64,000 bases of DNA from Gluconobacter sphaericus NBRC 12467 (GTDB lineage: Bacteria; Pseudomonadota; Alphaproteobacteria; Acetobacterales; Acetobacteraceae). The first letter of the stretch is position 1; each line of letters starts with the position of its first letter. This document shows, one piece after another, positions 45,551-55,662 of the stretch. The notes beneath the pieces were generated by a model that saw nothing but the letters and a program-made list of their open reading frames with translations, did not search any database and was not told where the DNA came from. Both the position numbers and the translations under genes were made by a program. The DNA is taken from the NCBI RefSeq assembly GCF_006539125.1, contig NZ_BJMK01000001.1:1-64000 (forward strand), in the 5' to 3' direction.

Positions 45551-48500
45551 TTAACGAGGCGCAGCGGGCTGCTGCGCCGGGAAGGCCTCGGGCTTGAGAG
45601 CTGGGCGCGGATGATCCGCCATGTCTTTGCGGAGCCAGGCGATGGCGGCGTCAAGCTGCTGGTCCTGCCCGTTGAAGGTGGCGACCGGCATGTTCTCGAC
45701 CTGGATGTCCGGGGAGACTCCCTTGTTTTCGACCAGCCAGTGCCCGTTCAAGTCGAAATATGGGTTCTCGGCTGTGCGGGCATTGCCGTTGTCGATCAGA
45801 CGATCGCCGTCAGACAGCCAGACACCTGCGCCTGCAGTGCGTTCGCCAAGTAATGGGGCGATGTGCAGGGATTTAATGCCCTGCGAGAAAGTCTCGCCAT
45901 CCGAATAGGTCATCTCATCGGACAGGACGATCAGCCGTCCCTGAAAGGACTGTTGCATGTTCACCGAAGGCGCATTGCCATAGCGGCCCCAGAACATCCA
46001 TGGGCGACGCATGAGTTGGGTGAGAACCCAGCTGTCGATATTGCCGCCCGTATTGCCACGGACGTCCACGATCAGACCGTCCTTGTCGATATTGGCATAG
46101 AACTCGCGGGCGAAGGCTTCCATGTCGTCGCCGACCATGGATTGCAGATGCAGATAGCCGATGCGTCCGTGACTAGCACGATCGACAACATTTGCGCGAC
46201 CGACTTCCCAGTCTCGTGCCCGCAGGCCACGCTCCTTCATATAAGGAACGGGGGTTACGATGACCTTGTGTTCCTTTCCGGCGCGGGCGAGCGTCAGGAG
46301 GACCTGCTTTCCGGCCTGATCGGCAAGGAGTGAACCCAGATCGGGCTGTCCAGCCGTGGGCTGTCCGTTGATGGCGACGACAAGATCTCCGTCACGGGCA
46401 TCCACACCTGGAGCCGCCAGCGGGGACTGCTGGTCCGGGAGGTCGCGGTCGCCTTGATAGATGTGATCGATCCGGAAGCCCTTGTCCTCATGCGTCAGAT
46501 GCGAGCCGAGGCCCGCAATGAGGCTGGATGCGGGCTGATCGACGGTCGTGGGCGCGTGGAGCTGTGAGTGCATGGCGCCGATTTCCGCCACCATCTGACC
46601 GAGCAGGTCGTCGAGATCCGCACGGTTCCCGAGACGGTCCACGAAGGGGGCGAAATGGGCGCGCACGGCTTTCCAGTCTACGCCTTGCAGGTCACGGTCA
46701 TAGTAATGGTCGCGGTGCAGGCGCCAGGCATCTATGAATTCGTCCAACCATTCCTGTCCGGGGTCGATCCGCAGGCGCAGATGGTCGAGTTCGATCTTCT
46801 TTCCGGCCAGTTCCTTGGGCTGCTTCTCGCCTGCAGGCGTCAGGAGCAGTTCAGGCGCGTTCTTGCCGCGACGGCTGAGTGTCAGCAGGGTTTTGCCATC
46901 GGGAGTGATGTCGAAATCTGAGATCGTGGCGGCGTAGGTTTCGATCTTGTGTTCGTTATTGTCGATATGGATCGACTTCAGATCGCCCGGCCTATCGCCA
47001 TCGCCTGAGCTGTCGATGGTGAACAGATACTCGTCGGAAACGCCGAGACCACTATAGTCCCCAGCTGGGACCGGAGCCTGATACAGGCGCGTGGCAAGAC
47101 CAGACCATTCGATGGCGGGGAGAGACTTTTTTTTGTCGCCGTCCTTCGTCTTGTCATCTTTCTTGTCGGCATCCGGCTTGTTGTCCGCCGCTTCCAGTTC
47201 GGTGGCGGGCTGGAACGGGAAGCGTGCTCCGGCCTGAAGAGCCAAGGCGTAAATGCCAGTCCGCTTCGGGAAGGCCGGGCCGATATTGCGGTCACCCCAG
47301 GGTGAATCACTGGACAGTGAAAAAGTGCGGTCCGAAAGGAACCATAGCCATTTTCCGTCCGGCGAGAATGACGGAGTATAGGATTCGTAGCGTCCGTCGG
47401 TGACCCAGTTCGTCTGACCGGTGGCGGGAACATAAAGCGCGATCTGACGGCGCAGGTTCGCACCACGGGTCCGTACGAAGGCCAGAACATGCCCGTCCGA
47501 GGACCATGACAGGGAGTCGAAGACGTTGGTGCCATCCTGCGTGGCGTTATCAACGAGCTTATCGGCCTTCGTGGAGAGGTCCGTCAGCCACAGCCGGCCT
47601 AGAAGGTCGGTATGGGCGGCGTATTTTCCGTCCGGAGAAAGCGACAGGATCACGGGCTCGGTCGGGGAGGGCTGGGTGATGGCCTCGCCTTTGCCGCTGC
47701 CGTCTGCTGCAAAGCGCCACAGGGCGGAATCGCCGCCTGCATCGCTGAAAGCAATGATGGATTTGCCGTCCGGCGTGATCTGGGCGAGACGCAGACGCAC
47801 ATTGTCAGGAGTGGCGAGGACGACGACGCGACGCGGTGACGCGCCTGCGACAACGACATGTCCGCGCATGGTGAAGGCCGCAGTTTCTCCCTTTGGAGAA
47901 ATGGTCGAGGACGTCAGGAAGCGCGTTGGCTTTTCCAGCCAGTAGGGGCTGCGGGGAAGATTGTCGGAGGTTAGGTCGATCTTGATGGGAGTGGTCTCAC
48001 CACTCGCCAGATTGAAGTCGAACAGGTCAGCGCCCTTGCGAATCACGATATGGTCGCCGGAAATGGAAGCTTCGAGGACGCTGTAATCCGTGAAACGGGT
48101 GAGTTGCTTTGCGGCCGAACCATCCGTGGCGAGGCTCCACAGATTGTAGCGGCCGTTCTGGTCGGAAATAACGATCAGCCGGTCGCGCCAGGGCATCGGG
48201 CGGATGAGGTTGGCGTCATGCGTGCCAATGCGCTCGGCTTCTTTGCCGTTCTGAAGATCGAAACGCCAGAGCTGGGACAGAGCGCCGCCACGATAGGCGC
48301 GCATGTGATCGCCGGTCGTGGCGAGTCCGAAGCGGACGGCGTAGAGCCAGCGTCCGTCCGGGCTGAGAGCGGCATCGTTGACGCCGGAGAGCGGAAAGAC
48401 GTGCTTTGCGCTGGTCTTCGGGTCAATGGCGGTGACGGTCTGGGTGTAATACGGTCCAGTGGCTGCGGGCGTCGCGTAGAGGATGCCGGCATGGGCGTCC

Positions 48501-48871
48501 CATCCGATGATTTTCAGGCGGGCGACGTTTTCGAAGGTCAGGCGCTGGGGCGTGCCGCCACTGCGGGGCATGATATAAATTTCGGTCGGGCCATCGAAAT
48601 TGGCGGCAAATGCGATCTGGGTGCCATCCGGGGAAATGACGGGGTGCGGATCAATGGCATTAGCGCCCTGCGGTACGCTCGTCAGGCGCTGGGCCTGACC
48701 GCCGGCGAGGGGCACGCTCCAGACGGATTGCTCGGCATTGAACAGGACTGTCTGGCCGGAAAGCGAGGGTTCACGCAGATAGCCCGGCTCGGCCTGAGCG
48801 CCGCCGAGGCTCAGCCCCATCAGGGCGGCGCAGGACAAAAGGGAGCTTCTGAGTGAATGGCGTTTGGGCAT
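45551..48871 (-). CDS. Tricorn-like S41 peptidase with beta-propeller and PDZ domains
   Basis: 1106 aa with a cleavable signal peptide ending in SLGGAQA, so it is periplasmic. Two WD/TolB-like propeller regions (repeats such as PVISPDGTQIAFAANFDGPTEIY) fill about 30-640. A PDZ domain (DGDLVVAINGQPTAG) precedes the S41 domain. Catalytic residues by tricorn spacing are H768, S990 (EMTYSDGETF) and E1048 (WLVENKGVSPD); S990 to E1048 is 58 residues, the same distance as S965-E1023 in tricorn. Tricorn's Ser745 next to the His is Met767 here. It probably degrades peptides in the periplasm. Single-gene transcript. Confidence 0.88.
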   Translation of the reverse strand: MPKRHSLRSSLLSCAALMGLSLGGAQAEPGYLREPSLSGQTVLFNAEQSVWSVPLAGGQAQRLTSVPQGANAIDPHPVISPDGTQIAFAANFDGPTEIYIMPRSGGTPQRLTFENVARLKIIGWDAHAGILYATPAATGPYYTQTVTAIDPKTSAKHVFPLSGVNDAALSPDGRWLYAVRFGLATTGDHMRAYRGGALSQLWRFDLQNGKEAERIGTHDANLIRPMPWRDRLIVISDQNGRYNLWSLATDGSAAKQLTRFTDYSVLEASISGDHIVIRKGADLFDFNLASGETTPIKIDLTSDNLPRSPYWLEKPTRFLTSSTISPKGETAAFTMRGHVVVAGASPRRVVVLATPDNVRLRLAQITPDGKSIIAFSDAGGDSALWRFAADGSGKGEAITQPSPTEPVILSLSPDGKYAAHTDLLGRLWLTDLSTKADKLVDNATQDGTNVFDSLSWSSDGHVLAFVRTRGANLRRQIALYVPATGQTNWVTDGRYESYTPSFSPDGKWLWFLSDRTFSLSSDSPWGDRNIGPAFPKRTGIYALALQAGARFPFQPATELEAADNKPDADKKDDKTKDGDKKKSLPAIEWSGLATRLYQAPVPAGDYSGLGVSDEYLFTIDSSGDGDRPGDLKSIHIDNNEHKIETYAATISDFDITPDGKTLLTLSRRGKNAPELLLTPAGEKQPKELAGKKIELDHLRLRIDPGQEWLDEFIDAWRLHRDHYYDRDLQGVDWKAVRAHFAPFVDRLGNRADLDDLLGQMVAEIGAMHSQLHAPTTVDQPASSLIAGLGSHLTHEDKGFRIDHIYQGDRDLPDQQSPLAAPGVDARDGDLVVAINGQPTAGQPDLGSLLADQAGKQVLLTLARAGKEHKVIVTPVPYMKERGLRARDWEVGRANVVDRASHGRIGYLHLQSMVGDDMEAFAREFYANIDKDGLIVDVRGNTGGNIDSWVLTQLMRRPWMFWGRYGNAPSVNMQQSFQGRLIVLSDEMTYSDGETFSQGIKSLHIAPLLGERTAGAGVWLSDGDRLIDNGNARTAENPYFDLNGHWLVENKGVSPDIQVENMPVATFNGQDQQLDAAIAWLRKDMADHPRPALKPEAFPAQQPAAPR

Positions 48872-50461: not shown

Positions 50462-51256
50462 GTGATCGTGCATCTCTTTTTTCGAGGGTTTCCGGAACTG
50501 GCTGATCTGGTGCTGCAGGCGAGTGGTATCGCCAAGTCCTTTGGTGGGAACGAGGTTCTGAAGGGCCTGTCGCTCGATGTGGAGCGTGGCGAACTGATTT
50601 CAATGATCGGGCCTTCGGGATGTGGTAAATCCACGTTCCTGCGCTGCCTCAATTTCCTGGAACATCCGGATGCGGGCTCTGTCCGGATCGAGGATGTGAC
50701 GGTCGCGTGCACGGGCAAGCACTGGAGCCGCGCCAACGAGGCCGAGGCCCATAAGCTGCGGTCGCATGTTGGCATGGTATTTCAGGCCTTCAACCTGTTT
50801 CCCCATCGTACGGTGCTGGACAACGTCATGATGGCGCCGCTCCAGGTCAAGAAGATGTCGCGCGATGAAGCCCAGTCCATTGCCTGCGAACTTCTGGCAA
50901 AGGTCGGGTTGGCGGCCGTCAAGGATCGGTATCCGGACAGTCTCTCAGGCGGTCAGAAGCAGCGCGCGGCCATTGCGCGCGCTCTGGCGATGAAGCCGTC
51001 TGTGATGCTTTATGACGAGCCGACTTCAGCGCTGGACCCCGAGCTTTCCGAGGAAGTCCTGTCCGTCATGCGGGCACTGGATGACGAGGGTATGACGCAG
51101 TTGGTTGTGACGCATGACATGCGCTTTGCGCGCGCGGCCTCGGATCGTGTTTTGTTTGTCGAAGGTGGGGAAATCGTCGAGAGCGGTGATCCGGACCTGA
51201 TGTTCGCCAATCCTCGGGAGGGACGGACACGCCGGTTCCTGCGGACGCTGCTATGA
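50462..51256 (+). CDS. Polar amino acid ABC transporter ATPase (GlnQ-like)
   Basis: 264 aa by the first GTG; the GTG at 50510 (VLQASGIAKSFGG) gives a more usual start. Walker A GPSGCGKSTFLRCLNFLEHP, VFQAFNLFPHRTVLDNV, signature LSGGQKQRAAIARALAM and Walker B VMLYDEPTSALDPE are all intact. The closest group is the HisP/GlnQ family for polar amino acids. It overlaps the fused permease gene by ATGATG. Confidence 0.92.
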   Translation: MIVHLFFRGFPELADLVLQASGIAKSFGGNEVLKGLSLDVERGELISMIGPSGCGKSTFLRCLNFLEHPDAGSVRIEDVTVACTGKHWSRANEAEAHKLRSHVGMVFQAFNLFPHRTVLDNVMMAPLQVKKMSRDEAQSIACELLAKVGLAAVKDRYPDSLSGGQKQRAAIARALAMKPSVMLYDEPTSALDPELSEEVLSVMRALDDEGMTQLVVTHDMRFARAASDRVLFVEGGEIVESGDPDLMFANPREGRTRRFLRTLL

Positions 51257-52782
51257 TGAAAAAACTTTTTGCACTTCTGCTGGCGCTTGCCATCAGCCCT
51301 GTTTCCATCGCGCTGGCAGACGCGCCCGCTGCATCACAGGAACTGCTCTGGGCATCGGATGGTGAGGCGAATGTGCCTTACGTCTTCCACGATCCGGCCC
51401 ATGAATCCCAAATGACCGGCTTCGAGTACGAACTGGTTAACGAGATCGCGGCACGGATGCACCGGAAGGCGAAGTTCATCCAGAATGACTGGGATGGTCT
51501 GATCCCCGGCCTGTCACGCGGACTGTATGGGATGGTTCTGGACGGCATCGAGATGACGCCGGAACACAAGGCAGCCGTCCTGTTCTCGCGTCCTTATTAT
51601 GTGACGAGCGAGCGCATCATCGTCCGGAACGACCAAAATGGGCTGGATACGATGGACGCCCTCAAGGGGCATACCGTCGGGACGATCAAGGACACGACGG
51701 CGGAGCGGATGCTGCGTCGGCAGGGCGGCTCGAACGTCCGGTCCTATGAAGAAGAGACGAATGCGTTCTCTGATCTGCGGAACGGGCGGCTGGATGCAAT
51801 CCTGCTCGATGCGCCGATCGCGCTGTATTATGGCAGCATTTCGCCGGATATGAAGCTCGTGGGCGAGCCGATCGGCAGCATGGAATACGGGATCGCTTTC
51901 TCGCCGGAGAACCGCGCGTTGCGTGATCAGGTGGACGCGGCTCTGGGCGAGATCATTCAGGACGGGACGCTGCATCGCATTCTGGCGCGCTGGAATTTGT
52001 GGACGCCGCTGATGGCGAACTATACTGGCGATAGCAGCCAGCCGGACATCGCACCGACGGAATGGGATCATTACCGGCAGGCCATGGCGAACACGACCGG
52101 CAGCGGCTGGCATGTTCTGGTCCGGCGTTATGTGAGTTTCCTGCCGCTGATCGGGCAGGCGGCACTCATGACGCTGGCGGTGTCGGCACTGGCCATGGTT
52201 CTGGCCGTCGCACTTGGGCTGCTGCTGGCGCTGTCGCGACATTACGGTGCAACGCCGCTTCGCTTCGTAGCGGGCGTGTATGTTGAGGTGGTGCGTGGCA
52301 CGCCGCTGCTGATTCAGGTGCTGTTTATCTTCTATGGACTGCCAGCTTTTGGCATCCGTCTGTCGCCGTTCATGGCGGGTGTGCTGTCGCTTGGTCTGAA
52401 TTACGCGGCCTATGAGGCGGAGAACTACCGCGCCGGCCTCCTCTCCGTACCGCGCGGGCAGATGGAAGCGGCGATTGCGCTGAACATGACACACTGGCAG
52501 GCGCTGCGCCTCGTGATTGTGCCGCAGGCGTTCCGGACGGTCGTACCGGTCATGACCAACGATTTTATTTCGCTGCTGAAGGACAGTTCGCTCGTTTCCG
52601 TCATTACGTTGACGGAGCTGAGCCAGACCTATGTGCGGCTGTCCTCCACCTATTACGATTATTTCGGAACGGGGATCATGGTCGGTCTGGCCTATCTGCT
52701 GCTCGGACTGCCGTTTGTGCGGCTGGCACGGATGGCAGAGCGACGGCTGGGCCGTGGGTTCTCAGGAACCGGGCACCACTGA
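51253..52782 (+). CDS. Amino acid ABC transporter, fused substrate-binding and permease protein
   Basis: 509 aa. A signal peptide (ending in IALADA) leads to a substrate-binding domain (residues of about 25-255: GFEYELVNEIAARM, GMVLDGIEMTPEH). After a linker it joins a GlnP/HisM-type permease (about 290-500: VVRGTPLLIQVLFIFYGLPAFG, the EAA loop YRAGLLSVPRGQMEAAIALNM). The fusion links sensor and channel on one chain, as in some lactobacillar GlnP proteins. The partner ATPase is encoded just upstream. A terminator overlaps its stop. Confidence 0.93.
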   Translation: MMKKLFALLLALAISPVSIALADAPAASQELLWASDGEANVPYVFHDPAHESQMTGFEYELVNEIAARMHRKAKFIQNDWDGLIPGLSRGLYGMVLDGIEMTPEHKAAVLFSRPYYVTSERIIVRNDQNGLDTMDALKGHTVGTIKDTTAERMLRRQGGSNVRSYEEETNAFSDLRNGRLDAILLDAPIALYYGSISPDMKLVGEPIGSMEYGIAFSPENRALRDQVDAALGEIIQDGTLHRILARWNLWTPLMANYTGDSSQPDIAPTEWDHYRQAMANTTGSGWHVLVRRYVSFLPLIGQAALMTLAVSALAMVLAVALGLLLALSRHYGATPLRFVAGVYVEVVRGTPLLIQVLFIFYGLPAFGIRLSPFMAGVLSLGLNYAAYEAENYRAGLLSVPRGQMEAAIALNMTHWQALRLVIVPQAFRTVVPVMTNDFISLLKDSSLVSVITLTELSQTYVRLSSTYYDYFGTGIMVGLAYLLLGLPFVRLARMAERRLGRGFSGTGHH

Positions 52783-52815: not shown

Positions 52816-53760
52816 TCAGGCCGGTCGTGGCGCGGACGGATCGTTGATGAGCGGCGGTACGAGCGTTCCGGTATCCAGCGTTCCGTCAAATCCCTGGCGC
52901 AGAACGCGGGACCAGCCGATCATCCAGCGATCCAGAGCATCAATGAACTGGGCGGCATCCGGGTTTTTGTGAACCGATGCTTTGTTCCAGTACTGCGGTG
53001 GCGCCAGAAGCTGGCGTGATCCATGTTCGATCGGAGCGACGAGCGTCTCCACCGTTTCGATATGAGCGGTGCCTTTGCCTGCCGCTGCGGCATAATACCA
53101 ACCGACATTGATCATCAGACTCGGGACTGGAAAGCCGAGTGTGTGCATACGGTTAAACGCAGCCGTGATGAATGGATCACTGCTGACGCTCTGGTTTTCG
53201 AGCACGGCATTGCTAGTGTAGCTGCATTCCTGCGACACACCAGCCCTGTCGGAAATATGGGACGCATAGTCGCGGTCATCATGGCATGGCGTTTCGAGCT
53301 GTTCTGCCAGATCGGCCGGGACGGGCTGTTGCGTGGCACGGACCACGATGACGCCGGAGACAACACCGCGATCAGTGCGGGCCAGAACCTGCTGGGACAG
53401 TTCCCCATGCGTCCCACTCCGGGCTGTCAGGATCGGATGCCAGTCACCGGCGGGAAGTGGGAGGATACGCCCGGCAATTGTCAGGCTCCCGTGCTCGGTG
53501 ATGCCCGGATCGGGCACGCCGATCTGGTCTCCCAGCCCCGGAGCACCGCCAGGCTGGCCGCCCTGTTGTCCATTCGGCTGTGGTGCTCCGGATCCCGCAT
53601 TATACGGTGTCGCCCCGGGCAGGTGGCCTGGAAGCCACGGCATGGCCTTTTTGAGCGCCGGAGTGGGATAGAAGGCGGCCATGCCGAGTGCGCCTACCGT
53701 TACGATCACGCTTGTGCGCCAGAGTGGCGCGCGTCGCCAGAGCCGTCCGAATGCCGTCAT
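52816..53760 (-). CDS. Single-pass membrane protein, hypothetical, in the AAA+ unit
   Basis: 314 aa. One membrane helix near the N-terminus (LWRTSVIVTVGALGMAAFY), then a Gly/Pro/Gln-rich linker and a larger domain, probably periplasmic. Two cysteines (ETPCHDD and SQECSYT) could form a disulfide there. No family recognised. It follows the AAA+ gene by 3 nt and is third in the three-gene run 55.66-52.82 kb. It may be the substrate adaptor or a structural partner of the AAA+ protein. Function unknown. Confidence 0.75.
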   Translation of the reverse strand: MTAFGRLWRRAPLWRTSVIVTVGALGMAAFYPTPALKKAMPWLPGHLPGATPYNAGSGAPQPNGQQGGQPGGAPGLGDQIGVPDPGITEHGSLTIAGRILPLPAGDWHPILTARSGTHGELSQQVLARTDRGVVSGVIVVRATQQPVPADLAEQLETPCHDDRDYASHISDRAGVSQECSYTSNAVLENQSVSSDPFITAAFNRMHTLGFPVPSLMINVGWYYAAAAGKGTAHIETVETLVAPIEHGSRQLLAPPQYWNKASVHKNPDAAQFIDALDRWMIGWSRVLRQGFDGTLDTGTLVPPLINDPSAPRPA

Positions 53761-53763
53761 GGA

Positions 53764-55038
53764 TCAGTGGCTCACCCGGCCAAGTTGGGTTTCTGTGTCG
53801 CTGGCGATCTCGGTGATGACCGTCCCGTCTTCCTGCGTGACGAGACGGACGCGCTTGGCGCCCTGCTGACGGGCGACGATAAGGCTTTCGCTGACCATAT
53901 CCTCGATGGAACGGACAAGATCGCGCGCGCTCGCGCCGGTACCGAGGTTCTTCTGCTTGACCATGACCTGGAACAGCACCCCGGCATCGATGCCGCCGGT
54001 TTCCACATGCAGACCATAGCCTTCGATCATGGCTTCGATTTCGAGTGCCGCGACGCGGGCCAGATCCAGTCCGCGCAGGGCACGGAAAATGAAAATACGG
54101 TCCAGACGGTTTAGTACCTCGGGGGCGAAGCCGGACTTGCGCAGAGCCTCCACCGATTCGGCGCGCATCTTTTCAGGTTCGTTGACGAGGCGATCGGCGA
54201 TTTCGGTGAGAGCCTCGGTTGCAACGTTGGATGTCAGCATGAAGATTGCGCGGGTGGTCGAAACCTGTTCACCCGTGGAGGCTTCCGTAACATGGCCGTC
54301 GTTCCAGGCCGTGAGGAACTTCTTGAAGACGTCCGGATGGGCTTTCTCGATCTCGTCGAGCAGCACCACGGCATCCGGATGATCCTTGAGGCCGCCTGTC
54401 AGCTTGCCGAAGGTGTCCGAACCCACATAGCCCTTGGGTGAGCCGAAAAGCTGGGTTGCAGCATGGGCGCTCGACATCTGCGTCATGTCGAAATGCAGCA
54501 GGGGGCGTTCCATCTGCTTGGCCATCTGCTTGGCCAGATATGTTTTTCCGGTGCCTGGAGGGCCAGCGAGCAGGAAGATGCCGACGGGTTTGCCCCGGAC
54601 CTGAAGGGCCAGGCGGCGGCGCATCTGCTGGGCGATGTCCTCGCAGACCTGATCCTGTCCGATGACGCGGGCGCGCAGCGAGGCGGCCAGTTCGTCGGCG
54701 TCGATGACGGTTTCGCGCTGTTCGCGGGCCATGAGCTCTTCAAGGGCTCCGCGGTTTGTCAGACGGCTGAGAACATCCATGATGAGACCTTTCCTGCGGC
54801 GCAGTCCGCGACGCGCCAGTTTTTCGGCTGACGTTTCATACGCCAGTCCCGTGACAGCCAGCAGGGCACTGATGCCTGCCAGCGGAAGATAGAAACGCCT
54901 TCCCCATTCGATGGCGGCCCACAGCCCGTTCAGCGACAGGTGTAGCATGACCGCGACCTGAATCACTGCCAGAATGAGGAAGGCCGCCATCATCAGCGGC
55001 ATGGCCCGGTTGAGCATGGGAACGAGGGACTTGAACAC
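53764..55038 (-). CDS. Membrane-anchored AAA+ unfoldase, ClpA/ClpB D2-like
   Basis: 424 aa. Two membrane helices at about 15-33 and 50-67 anchor it. The AAA+ domain is of the Hsp100 D2 type: Walker A GPPGTGKT at 159-166, pore loop GYVGSDTFGKL at 203-213, Walker B VVLLDEIEKAHPDVF at 224-238, sensor 1 FMLTSNVA and the Arg-finger region FAPEVLNRLDRIF. It has a D2-small-like C-terminal domain. There is no Clp N-domain, no D1, no middle domain and no visible IGF/LGF loop for ClpP. It is the centre of a three-gene unit with two single-pass membrane proteins of unknown role. It could pull membrane proteins or act as a chaperone at the membrane. Confidence 0.88.
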   Translation of the reverse strand: MFKSLVPMLNRAMPLMMAAFLILAVIQVAVMLHLSLNGLWAAIEWGRRFYLPLAGISALLAVTGLAYETSAEKLARRGLRRRKGLIMDVLSRLTNRGALEELMAREQRETVIDADELAASLRARVIGQDQVCEDIAQQMRRRLALQVRGKPVGIFLLAGPPGTGKTYLAKQMAKQMERPLLHFDMTQMSSAHAATQLFGSPKGYVGSDTFGKLTGGLKDHPDAVVLLDEIEKAHPDVFKKFLTAWNDGHVTEASTGEQVSTTRAIFMLTSNVATEALTEIADRLVNEPEKMRAESVEALRKSGFAPEVLNRLDRIFIFRALRGLDLARVAALEIEAMIEGYGLHVETGGIDAGVLFQVMVKQKNLGTGASARDLVRSIEDMVSESLIVARQQGAKRVRLVTQEDGTVITEIASDTETQLGRVSH

Positions 55039-55050
55039 CGGGGCGGTTCC

Positions 55051-55662
55051 TTACTGGACGATCACGTTGAGCAGGACGCGCTGGTCGAGCGTCATCAGGG
55101 CGGGCAGGGCTTCGGGGCCGAGGGCTGTCAGCGCTCCGATGATCAGGGCGGGGGCATGTGGCATGCTGACAGGTGCGATGAGGATCTGCCCGGCTTCGAC
55201 AATGGGAATGACCAGATGCTGGAATTTGCCCGTCAGGACGACGCGCTGTGTCAGGCCCGAGACCGTGACGTCAATAGTCTGGCCCACTGCTCCTGACGCA
55301 TCCAGAACCGGCATTTCCACAAGCCGCATCTTGCCGTCCTTCACTGCTGCGAGAATGCGGGCGCGGTCGGCAGGGCTGAAGCCGCTTTTTGCGAGCGCGG
55401 CCGTGGCCTTTGCGGGAGGAAGCATGGAAAGCTGGACCGCGGCTGTCTGGGCGGCCGGTACGGCTGGCGTGCTCTGGGACTGCGGTGCGACTGCAGGGGC
55501 TGGCGGAGTTGCTGTATTATGTGTGTAGAAAAAGGCCCCGGCCCCGACCGTCAGGGCAGCGATCAGCCCGCCTCCGCCCCACAGCGCCCGGCTGCGGGAT
55601 GCCGGTTCGGAGGGCAGCGGCTGGGCGCGTGGTTCTGGACGGGGCTCGTACTGGGAAGTCAT
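55051..55662 (-). CDS. Single-pass membrane protein, hypothetical, first gene of the AAA+ unit
   Basis: 203 aa from ATG 55662 (the frame opens at 55701). A polar Pro-rich N-terminus precedes one membrane helix (GGGGLIAALTVGAGAFFY), then an Ala/Pro-rich linker. The C-terminal part (about 85-203) is probably periplasmic and includes LAKSGFSPADRARILAAVKDG and TGKFQHLVIPIVEAGQILIAPV. No recognised domain. It lies 12 nt before the AAA+ gene. Alternating exposure of such domains on either side of the membrane suggests a membrane complex. Confidence 0.7.
   Translation of the reverse strand: MTSQYEPRPEPRAQPLPSEPASRSRALWGGGGLIAALTVGAGAFFYTHNTATPPAPAVAPQSQSTPAVPAAQTAAVQLSMLPPAKATAALAKSGFSPADRARILAAVKDGKMRLVEMPVLDASGAVGQTIDVTVSGLTQRVVLTGKFQHLVIPIVEAGQILIAPVSMPHAPALIIGALTALGPEALPALMTLDQRVLLNVIVQ

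Follow-up and report, generated by a model that had tools for sequence, protein, structure and literature searches.

What work is done by an Hsp100-type motor that is apparently anchored in the inner membrane and encoded between two partners of no named family? The question is raised by a window of 64,000 nt (the whole stretch of DNA analysed, positions 1 to 64,000 of contig NZ_BJMK01000001.1 of Gluconobacter sphaericus NBRC 12467), in which a sequence-only reading had pointed to three closely packed genes, here called A, B and C. The open reading frames (ORFs), their common strand, their order and the gaps of 12 nt (A-B) and 3 nt (B-C) were all borne out by ORF analysis. We found that order and strand of the trio are conserved across acetic acid bacteria and some other Acetobacteraceae, and that gene A and the ATPase motifs of B were lost jointly at least three times (five times on the best tree), with B and C retained. 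The features used below are as follows (coordinates of motifs and segments inside B and C were computed from the ORFs):

55662-55051, minus strand: gene A, 203 aa, ATG start; Pro-rich N-terminal tail, weak hydrophobic segment (residues ~27-46), linker, C-terminal domain (71-203), C-terminus VIVQ
55038-53764, minus strand: gene B, 424 aa, GTG start; two N-terminal membrane helices, linker, single Hsp100 D2-type AAA+ module
54541-54564, minus strand: Walker A motif of B, GPPGTGKT, residues 159-166
54421-54432, minus strand: aromatic pore loop of B, GYVG, residues 203-206
54337-54369, minus strand: Walker B motif of B, VVLLDEIEKAH, residues 224-234
53760-52816, minus strand: gene C, 314 aa, ATG start; N-terminal LWxxAPxWR segment with a hydrophobic helix, Pro/Gly-rich linker, domain at ~90-294
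53689-53742, minus strand: residues 7-24 of C, covering LWRRAPLWR and the first part of the helix; the probable AAA+-partner element

A scan of the genome collection with B gave 116 confirmed relatives; the best 80 of these, hereafter the named loci, are all from Acetobacteraceae by record title. The three genes stand side by side on a single strand in 80 of the 80 when A is sought by a profile, which upholds the co-occurrence on which the idea of a unit depended; simple tblastn found B and C in all 80 and A in 75. In a set of 145 loci, which includes duplicates (distinct B sequences are counted separately below), C is present in 145 of 145 and A lies on the B strand next to B in 137 of 137. 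Such an arrangement is beyond chance. Genes A and B overlap by 4 nt in 41 of the 69 named loci measured, and 70 of 73 named A orthologue ORFs end in V[IV][VA]Q followed by the stop codon.

In the family sample, B was detected in 47 of 200 genomes at 1e-60, each of them with a C match, and A in 24 of 120 genomes, each of them with both B and C. Matches to C were found in 53 of 200 genomes at 1e-3: four (G011, G063, G076 and G156) are other secreted proteins with the C domain, one (G049) sits at the edge of a contig, and another (G070) accompanies a B with a dead ATPase (see below). A larger family sample had C in 105 of 397 genomes at 1e-12. Outside Acetobacteraceae no further B was found in the class sample (2/385 genomes matched at 1e-70, both Acetobacteraceae) or in the phylum sample (2/398 at 1e-60, the same two genomes); C matched in 3 of 289 genomes of the class sample, two of these being domain relatives only. 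Among 72,556 plasmid records B occurs on one, from Microvirga, at a coverage of at least 80%, and the plasmid search gave no match to A or C; phage and viral collections yielded distant Hsp100 matches only. A mobile or defence island was rejected since the trio stands beside rimP-nusA-infB in all 80 named loci. In six loci (L119 and L122-L126) the trio is retained among other flanking genes.

The translated B contains, as had been read from the letters, the Walker A motif, the GYVG pore loop and a D2-type arginine-finger region (VLNRLD), along with the sensor-1 TSN. Its best Pfam match is AAA_2 (128 bits versus a cut-off of 27), which places it in the Hsp100 D2 AAA+ superfamily; statements on Pfam matches of B rest on the best 25 of 39 families found up to E = 1. 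ATPase motifs, aromatic pore loop and arginine finger are intact in 138 of 145 B loci, and 137 of these 138 have their own finger residues NR. The class-I Hsp100 models (ClpB, ClpA, ClpV) gave scores of 169.7 bits (ClpB, cut-off 1232), 165.5 bits (cut-off 993) and 145.5 bits (cut-off 885); the alignments are confined to the D2 part and reach about a seventh of the cut-offs. With a single AAA+ module in 424 aa, B has no room for an N-domain and D1. The IGF/IGL loop of the ClpP-dependent unfoldases (ClpA, ClpC, ClpX), sought as the pattern [LIVM]G[FLM] in the stretch from sensor 1 to the arginine finger, occurs in 0 of 145 B loci; two positive controls, the ClpA-like protein of the same genome and Sinorhizobium ClpA, have IGFG at that place. 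The earlier statement that B lacks the Clp N-domain, D1 and the ClpP-binding loop is thus confirmed. In a tree of D2 domains (ClpA, ClpB and other Hsp100 proteins) five B proteins of the trio and the Microvirga plasmid protein form one side of a branch with a support of 100/100; B is a clade of its own, outside the named Hsp100 families. Hydropathy located the two proposed N-terminal membrane helices in 10 of 10 orthologues tested, and net positive charge behind the second helix in 9 of 10, so that the AAA+ domain should be cytoplasmic.

No name could be attached to either partner. Pfam (also run on every alignment row), NCBIfam and PADLOC (no model up to E = 1) have nothing named for A or C; sequence-profile searches of PDB gave no usable match (best E 0.19 for A and 1.3 for C), and Foldseek with the models of the two proteins gave no match at E up to 0.001. 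B itself stays far under the curated cut-off of every named Hsp100 family in the profile comparison with the Clp families, and at such cut-offs it cannot be assigned to any known family of secretion or quality-control proteins. The view that no named system has this composition, with neighbours that do co-occur, accordingly stands.

The strongest clue to function comes from seven genomes (G116, G136, G061, G158, G580, G070 and G714) with a dead B, in which the Walker A lysine-threonine, the Walker B acidic pair and the pore loop are changed or gone. In all seven, A was not found by profile and C was found. B and rimP are 249-292 bp apart in the seven dead loci, whereas the remaining loci measured have a median of 822 bp; of the 132 other loci listed, two (249 and 255 bp) duplicate dead loci and no other is below 650 bp. 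Counted as distinct B sequences, 116 are intact and accompanied by A and C, seven are dead with C and without A, and one (Microvirga) is intact without A. Within Acetobacteraceae, therefore, neither a dead B with A nor an intact B without A occurs among 123 distinct sequences (in one of them A is frameshifted). The Fisher p of 1.4e-11 for this association ignores relatedness and was not used as proof. A NusA-RimP tree built from 36 loci requires five changes to explain the dead state, three of them forced by supported branches; a single origin was rejected (AU test, p 3e-43). Both states are present within three genera (G029/G116; Saccharibacter-type G101/G158-G580; Bombella-type/G714).

Dead B is unlikely to be a mere pseudogene. 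This explanation was rejected on the G158-G580 pair, where dN/dS comes to 0.057 (dead B) and 0.058 (C), indicating purifying selection; the other dead pairs have saturated dS. Dead copies keep invariant residues better before Walker A and in the small domain than from Walker A to sensor 1; in locus L117, for example, 15 of 21 are kept before Walker A and 19 of 33 in the small domain, versus 18 of 78 in the stretch that separates Walker A from sensor 1 (the count does not include the N-terminus of L132).

Since A and the ATPase are lost together, they would appear to work together, and since the ATPase is kept only with A inside Acetobacteraceae, A is likely to be partner or client of the powered step. 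Persistence of B-C without A and with a dead ATPase argues for an ATP-independent role of B-C; the unit survives in this state in seven genomes, so ATP-driven work would not be its only role. The sequences themselves show a conserved trio, intact motor motifs, the joint loss of A and ATPase motifs, and the persistence of B and C where this happened; the ring itself, the contacts between the proteins, where A and C are placed, what the substrate is and which way it is pulled all belong to a model. In this model, to which we give somewhat less than an even chance, A, B and C form one inner-membrane machine in which A is the partner that the ATPase works with and B-C is what remains as a scaffold after A is lost. 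B would fix an Hsp100 D2-type AAA+ ring to the inner membrane, on its cytoplasmic side. C, the constant partner, would dock on B via its N-terminal LWxxAxxWR segment and membrane helix and place a disulfide-type domain in the periplasm. By way of its GYVG pore the ring may engage or thread the flexible N-terminal tail of A, or else a client that A delivers, and thereby remodel or extract a protein or complex of the envelope. Once A is gone the ATPase would idle and decay, with B-C persisting as a scaffold. The aromatic pore loop and the protein's own arginine finger suggest that B, unlike torsins, should thread or remodel polypeptides.

Our best guess is an inner-membrane unfoldase or remodeller that acts on A or by way of it; its likeliest job would be to remodel or extract a protein or complex of the envelope, A being either the client or its carrier. 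The sequence-only reading had thought of a membrane protein unfoldase or extrusion machine: unfolding or threading is made plausible by the intact ATPase motifs and the aromatic pore loop; a client, an export signal or an export function would be conjecture. A bolder version is a new class of trans-envelope motor, in which an inner-membrane Hsp100-type ring would use cytoplasmic ATP to pull on, set or release A, the working domain of which would be periplasmic, C would be the constant coupling piece, and loss of A would have turned the machine into an ATP-free scaffold several times; we put it forward as a tentative and rather doubtful proposal.

The part assigned to C is suggested by the separate occurrence of its two modules. 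Plasmid pMVF16-3 of Microvirga sp. VF16 has, directly behind the gene for the membrane-type AAA+ protein, an unannotated ORF of 64 aa (L114:13221-13414, plus strand), mini-C, which matches the C profile in its first 38 positions only (20 bits, i-E 1.7e-5) and corresponds to the N-terminal LWxxAxxWR-plus-helix part of C alone. Mini-C has a good ribosome-binding site, and the PLSDB gene table has an opposite-strand gene just after it. Conversely, the C-terminal domain with its PLPxGxW motif and two cysteines occurs elsewhere without the N-terminal segment:

L136:7011-8654, L137:7683-8675, L138:7854-8798, also L134 and L135: secreted-type proteins with PLPxGxW and two cysteines
L139:7293-8675: C domain behind a weakly ClpP-like N-terminal domain (NCBIfam 19.7 bits, far under the cut-off), which we take to be of COG3904 type
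L140:7419-9410 (twice in L140) and L141:6550-7524 (minus strand): C domain together with DUF2061

No Pfam family was found in the five proteins tested, and L136 has two tandem copies of the C domain near gltBD. C therefore looks like a fusion of an AAA+-partner anchor with a periplasmic-type domain, and the LWxxAxxWR segment is probably the docking element. In the trio, the domain at ~90-294 has the motif LPLPxGxW and two invariant cysteines; the pair noticed earlier in one neighbour (C159 and C179) is kept in 37 of 37 aligned rows. The AlphaFold model of C has a helix at residues 12-30. For A, the AlphaFold model predicts an Ig/CBM-like beta-sandwich with a helical hairpin at 71-203 and low-confidence coil in the N-terminal third. 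Further structural comparison gave vCBM60 as best for A (Z 5.5, rmsd 3.4, 85 aligned; within the stated background) and Mog1/PsbP-like folds for the C domain (Mog1p, Z 8.1, rmsd 4.3, 152 aligned; CyanoP, Z 7.9, rmsd 4.1, 135 aligned; background 7-8). As these Z-scores are within background, we claim no fold family for A or C.

Several observations weigh against the machine. Only three independent pairs are supported, and though all run in the same direction the sign test gives p 0.25, significance at 0.05 being out of reach with three to five pairs. Microvirga has a B with intact ATPase and no A. In Saccharibacter sp. 17.LH.SD (L033), the sister of G158 and G580, a frameshifted A stands beside an intact ATPase, a state that looks as if A goes first. 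In G126 (L133) both C and the N-terminal part of B are frameshifted, next to an undamaged A and ATPase domain, and the B of G165 (L119) loses its reading frame close to the end. These four exceptions could be states of transition, errors or another arrangement. Topology is a further point: the N-terminal stretch of A is over the hydropathy threshold in 4 of 8 orthologues only, and that of the window's own A fails. For C, 8 of 11 orthologues are over the threshold, and again the window's own protein is below it. The proposal that both neighbours are single-pass membrane proteins is therefore kept only as a pattern among orthologues, on weaker evidence, by which A and C may each cross the membrane once.

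The seven dead-B genomes are, moreover, all small (1.9-2.4 Mb), which makes shared genome reduction in insect-associated lineages a rival cause; the correlation of A with the ATPase would then reflect no coupling at all. We give this little credence, because both are kept in other genomes that match in size and genus (G029 versus G116; the Bombella-type g33 genomes versus G714), B and C are retained, and the two discordant combinations are missing among the distinct Acetobacteraceae sequences. The same joint-loss data would also fit an A that activates or regulates the ATPase of B, as LAP1/LULL1 do for torsins; loss of the activator would make the ATPase useless, and B-C would act on general clients. 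Torsins are, in the passages of PMC5425593 consulted, Clp/HSP100-related membrane-associated ATPases, single AAA+ rings under membrane-anchored cofactors, that lack an aromatic pore loop and take their arginine finger from the cofactor. Intact B, on the other hand, has both the pore-loop residue and its own NR finger, so no finger needs to be supplied; its score with the Torsin model of Pfam is 25.6 bits, under the cut-off of 27. A and C have no AAA+ fold by prediction, and the A domain is predicted to be periplasmic, away from the active site. An activator role for A is thus unlikely in our estimate.

A general quality-control extractor of the inner membrane, in which A and C would serve on the periplasmic side as receptors for misfolded proteins of membrane or periplasm, would agree with the anchoring, the cytoplasmic AAA+ domain and the pore loop of B, and with the weak likeness of the C domain to periplasmic sensors such as RseB (Z 6.9, rmsd 3.4, 93 aligned; within the usual background). 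Msp1 and FtsH are membrane-anchored cytoplasmic AAA+ motors and in that resemble B. B differs from them in belonging to the Clp/AAA_2 branch and in having two dedicated partners; no peptidase was found among the best 25 of the 39 Pfam families, in contrast to the classic AAA plus M41 peptidase of FtsH. Given also the narrow range, with no match outside Acetobacteraceae in the sampled class and phylum genomes, we think such an extractor distinctly unlikely. The physiology of acetic acid bacteria rests on periplasmic-facing dehydrogenases, and the distribution of the trio, mostly in these bacteria, would suit a chaperone dedicated to assembling or maturing an envelope complex particular to these acidophilic oxidisers, for instance such a dehydrogenase or a cell-wall enzyme. 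This we regard as improbable: no client gene is linked, the flanks (rimP-nusA-infB, a glutamine-type ABC transporter, ccmAB) are not constant, and the parts consulted of four papers on G. oxydans and Acetobacteraceae (PMC8602642, PMC12041372, PMC11302035, PMC10727944) gave no passage on the trio.

Other known systems share the ATPase with B and differ in the rest. Hsp100/Clp D2 proteins (ClpB, ClpA, ClpC, ClpV) have the same AAA_2 domain, Walker motifs, GYVG, arginine finger and C-terminal small domain; unlike them, B has no N-domain, D1, middle domain or IGF loop, and has two membrane helices and a separate place in the tree. The PADLOC defence ATPases PDC-M37B and DolB (Dodola) resemble B in a single Hsp100-D2-like AAA+ domain (E 1.9e-24 and 1.2e-19), but the match is restricted to that domain, the partners match no PADLOC model and the trio is an operon with a fixed place on the chromosome rather than a variable island. 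Human CLPB/SKD3 is likewise a single Hsp100 D2 ring beside a membrane compartment (PMC9934407); it has ankyrin repeats and an intermembrane-space location, whereas B has membrane helices and operon partners. A full-text literature search found no paper on the A-B-C unit; supplements, including the G. oxydans B58 mutant catalogue, were outside its scope. The AAA+ module is of a known kind, while its membrane anchoring, its two partners and the repeated pseudo-ATPase conversion were not found described in the literature searched.

As for the surroundings in the window, the trio lies between a divergent rimP on one side and, on the other, a gene for an amino-acid (glutamine-type) ABC transporter (51253-52782) in which solute-binding protein and permease are fused and which adjoins its own ATPase gene. 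Further away, at 45551-48871 on the minus strand, a large protein of 1106 aa is presumably a tricorn-type periplasmic protease, judging by its look. A promoter scan near A gave no minus-strand promoter-like site and was uninformative.

Membrane-anchored Hsp100-type motors are rare, and here is one with two partners of no named family, in bacteria of industrial and ecological importance whose Gluconobacter strains are tractable for direct tests. The repeated joint loss, with B and C retained, is a natural experiment: it tells the partner served by the ATPase and leads one to expect that B-C has a role without ATP. Should cytoplasmic ATP indeed move a periplasmic partner, this would be a new way of sending work across the inner membrane; the trio points to an envelope machine not yet described.

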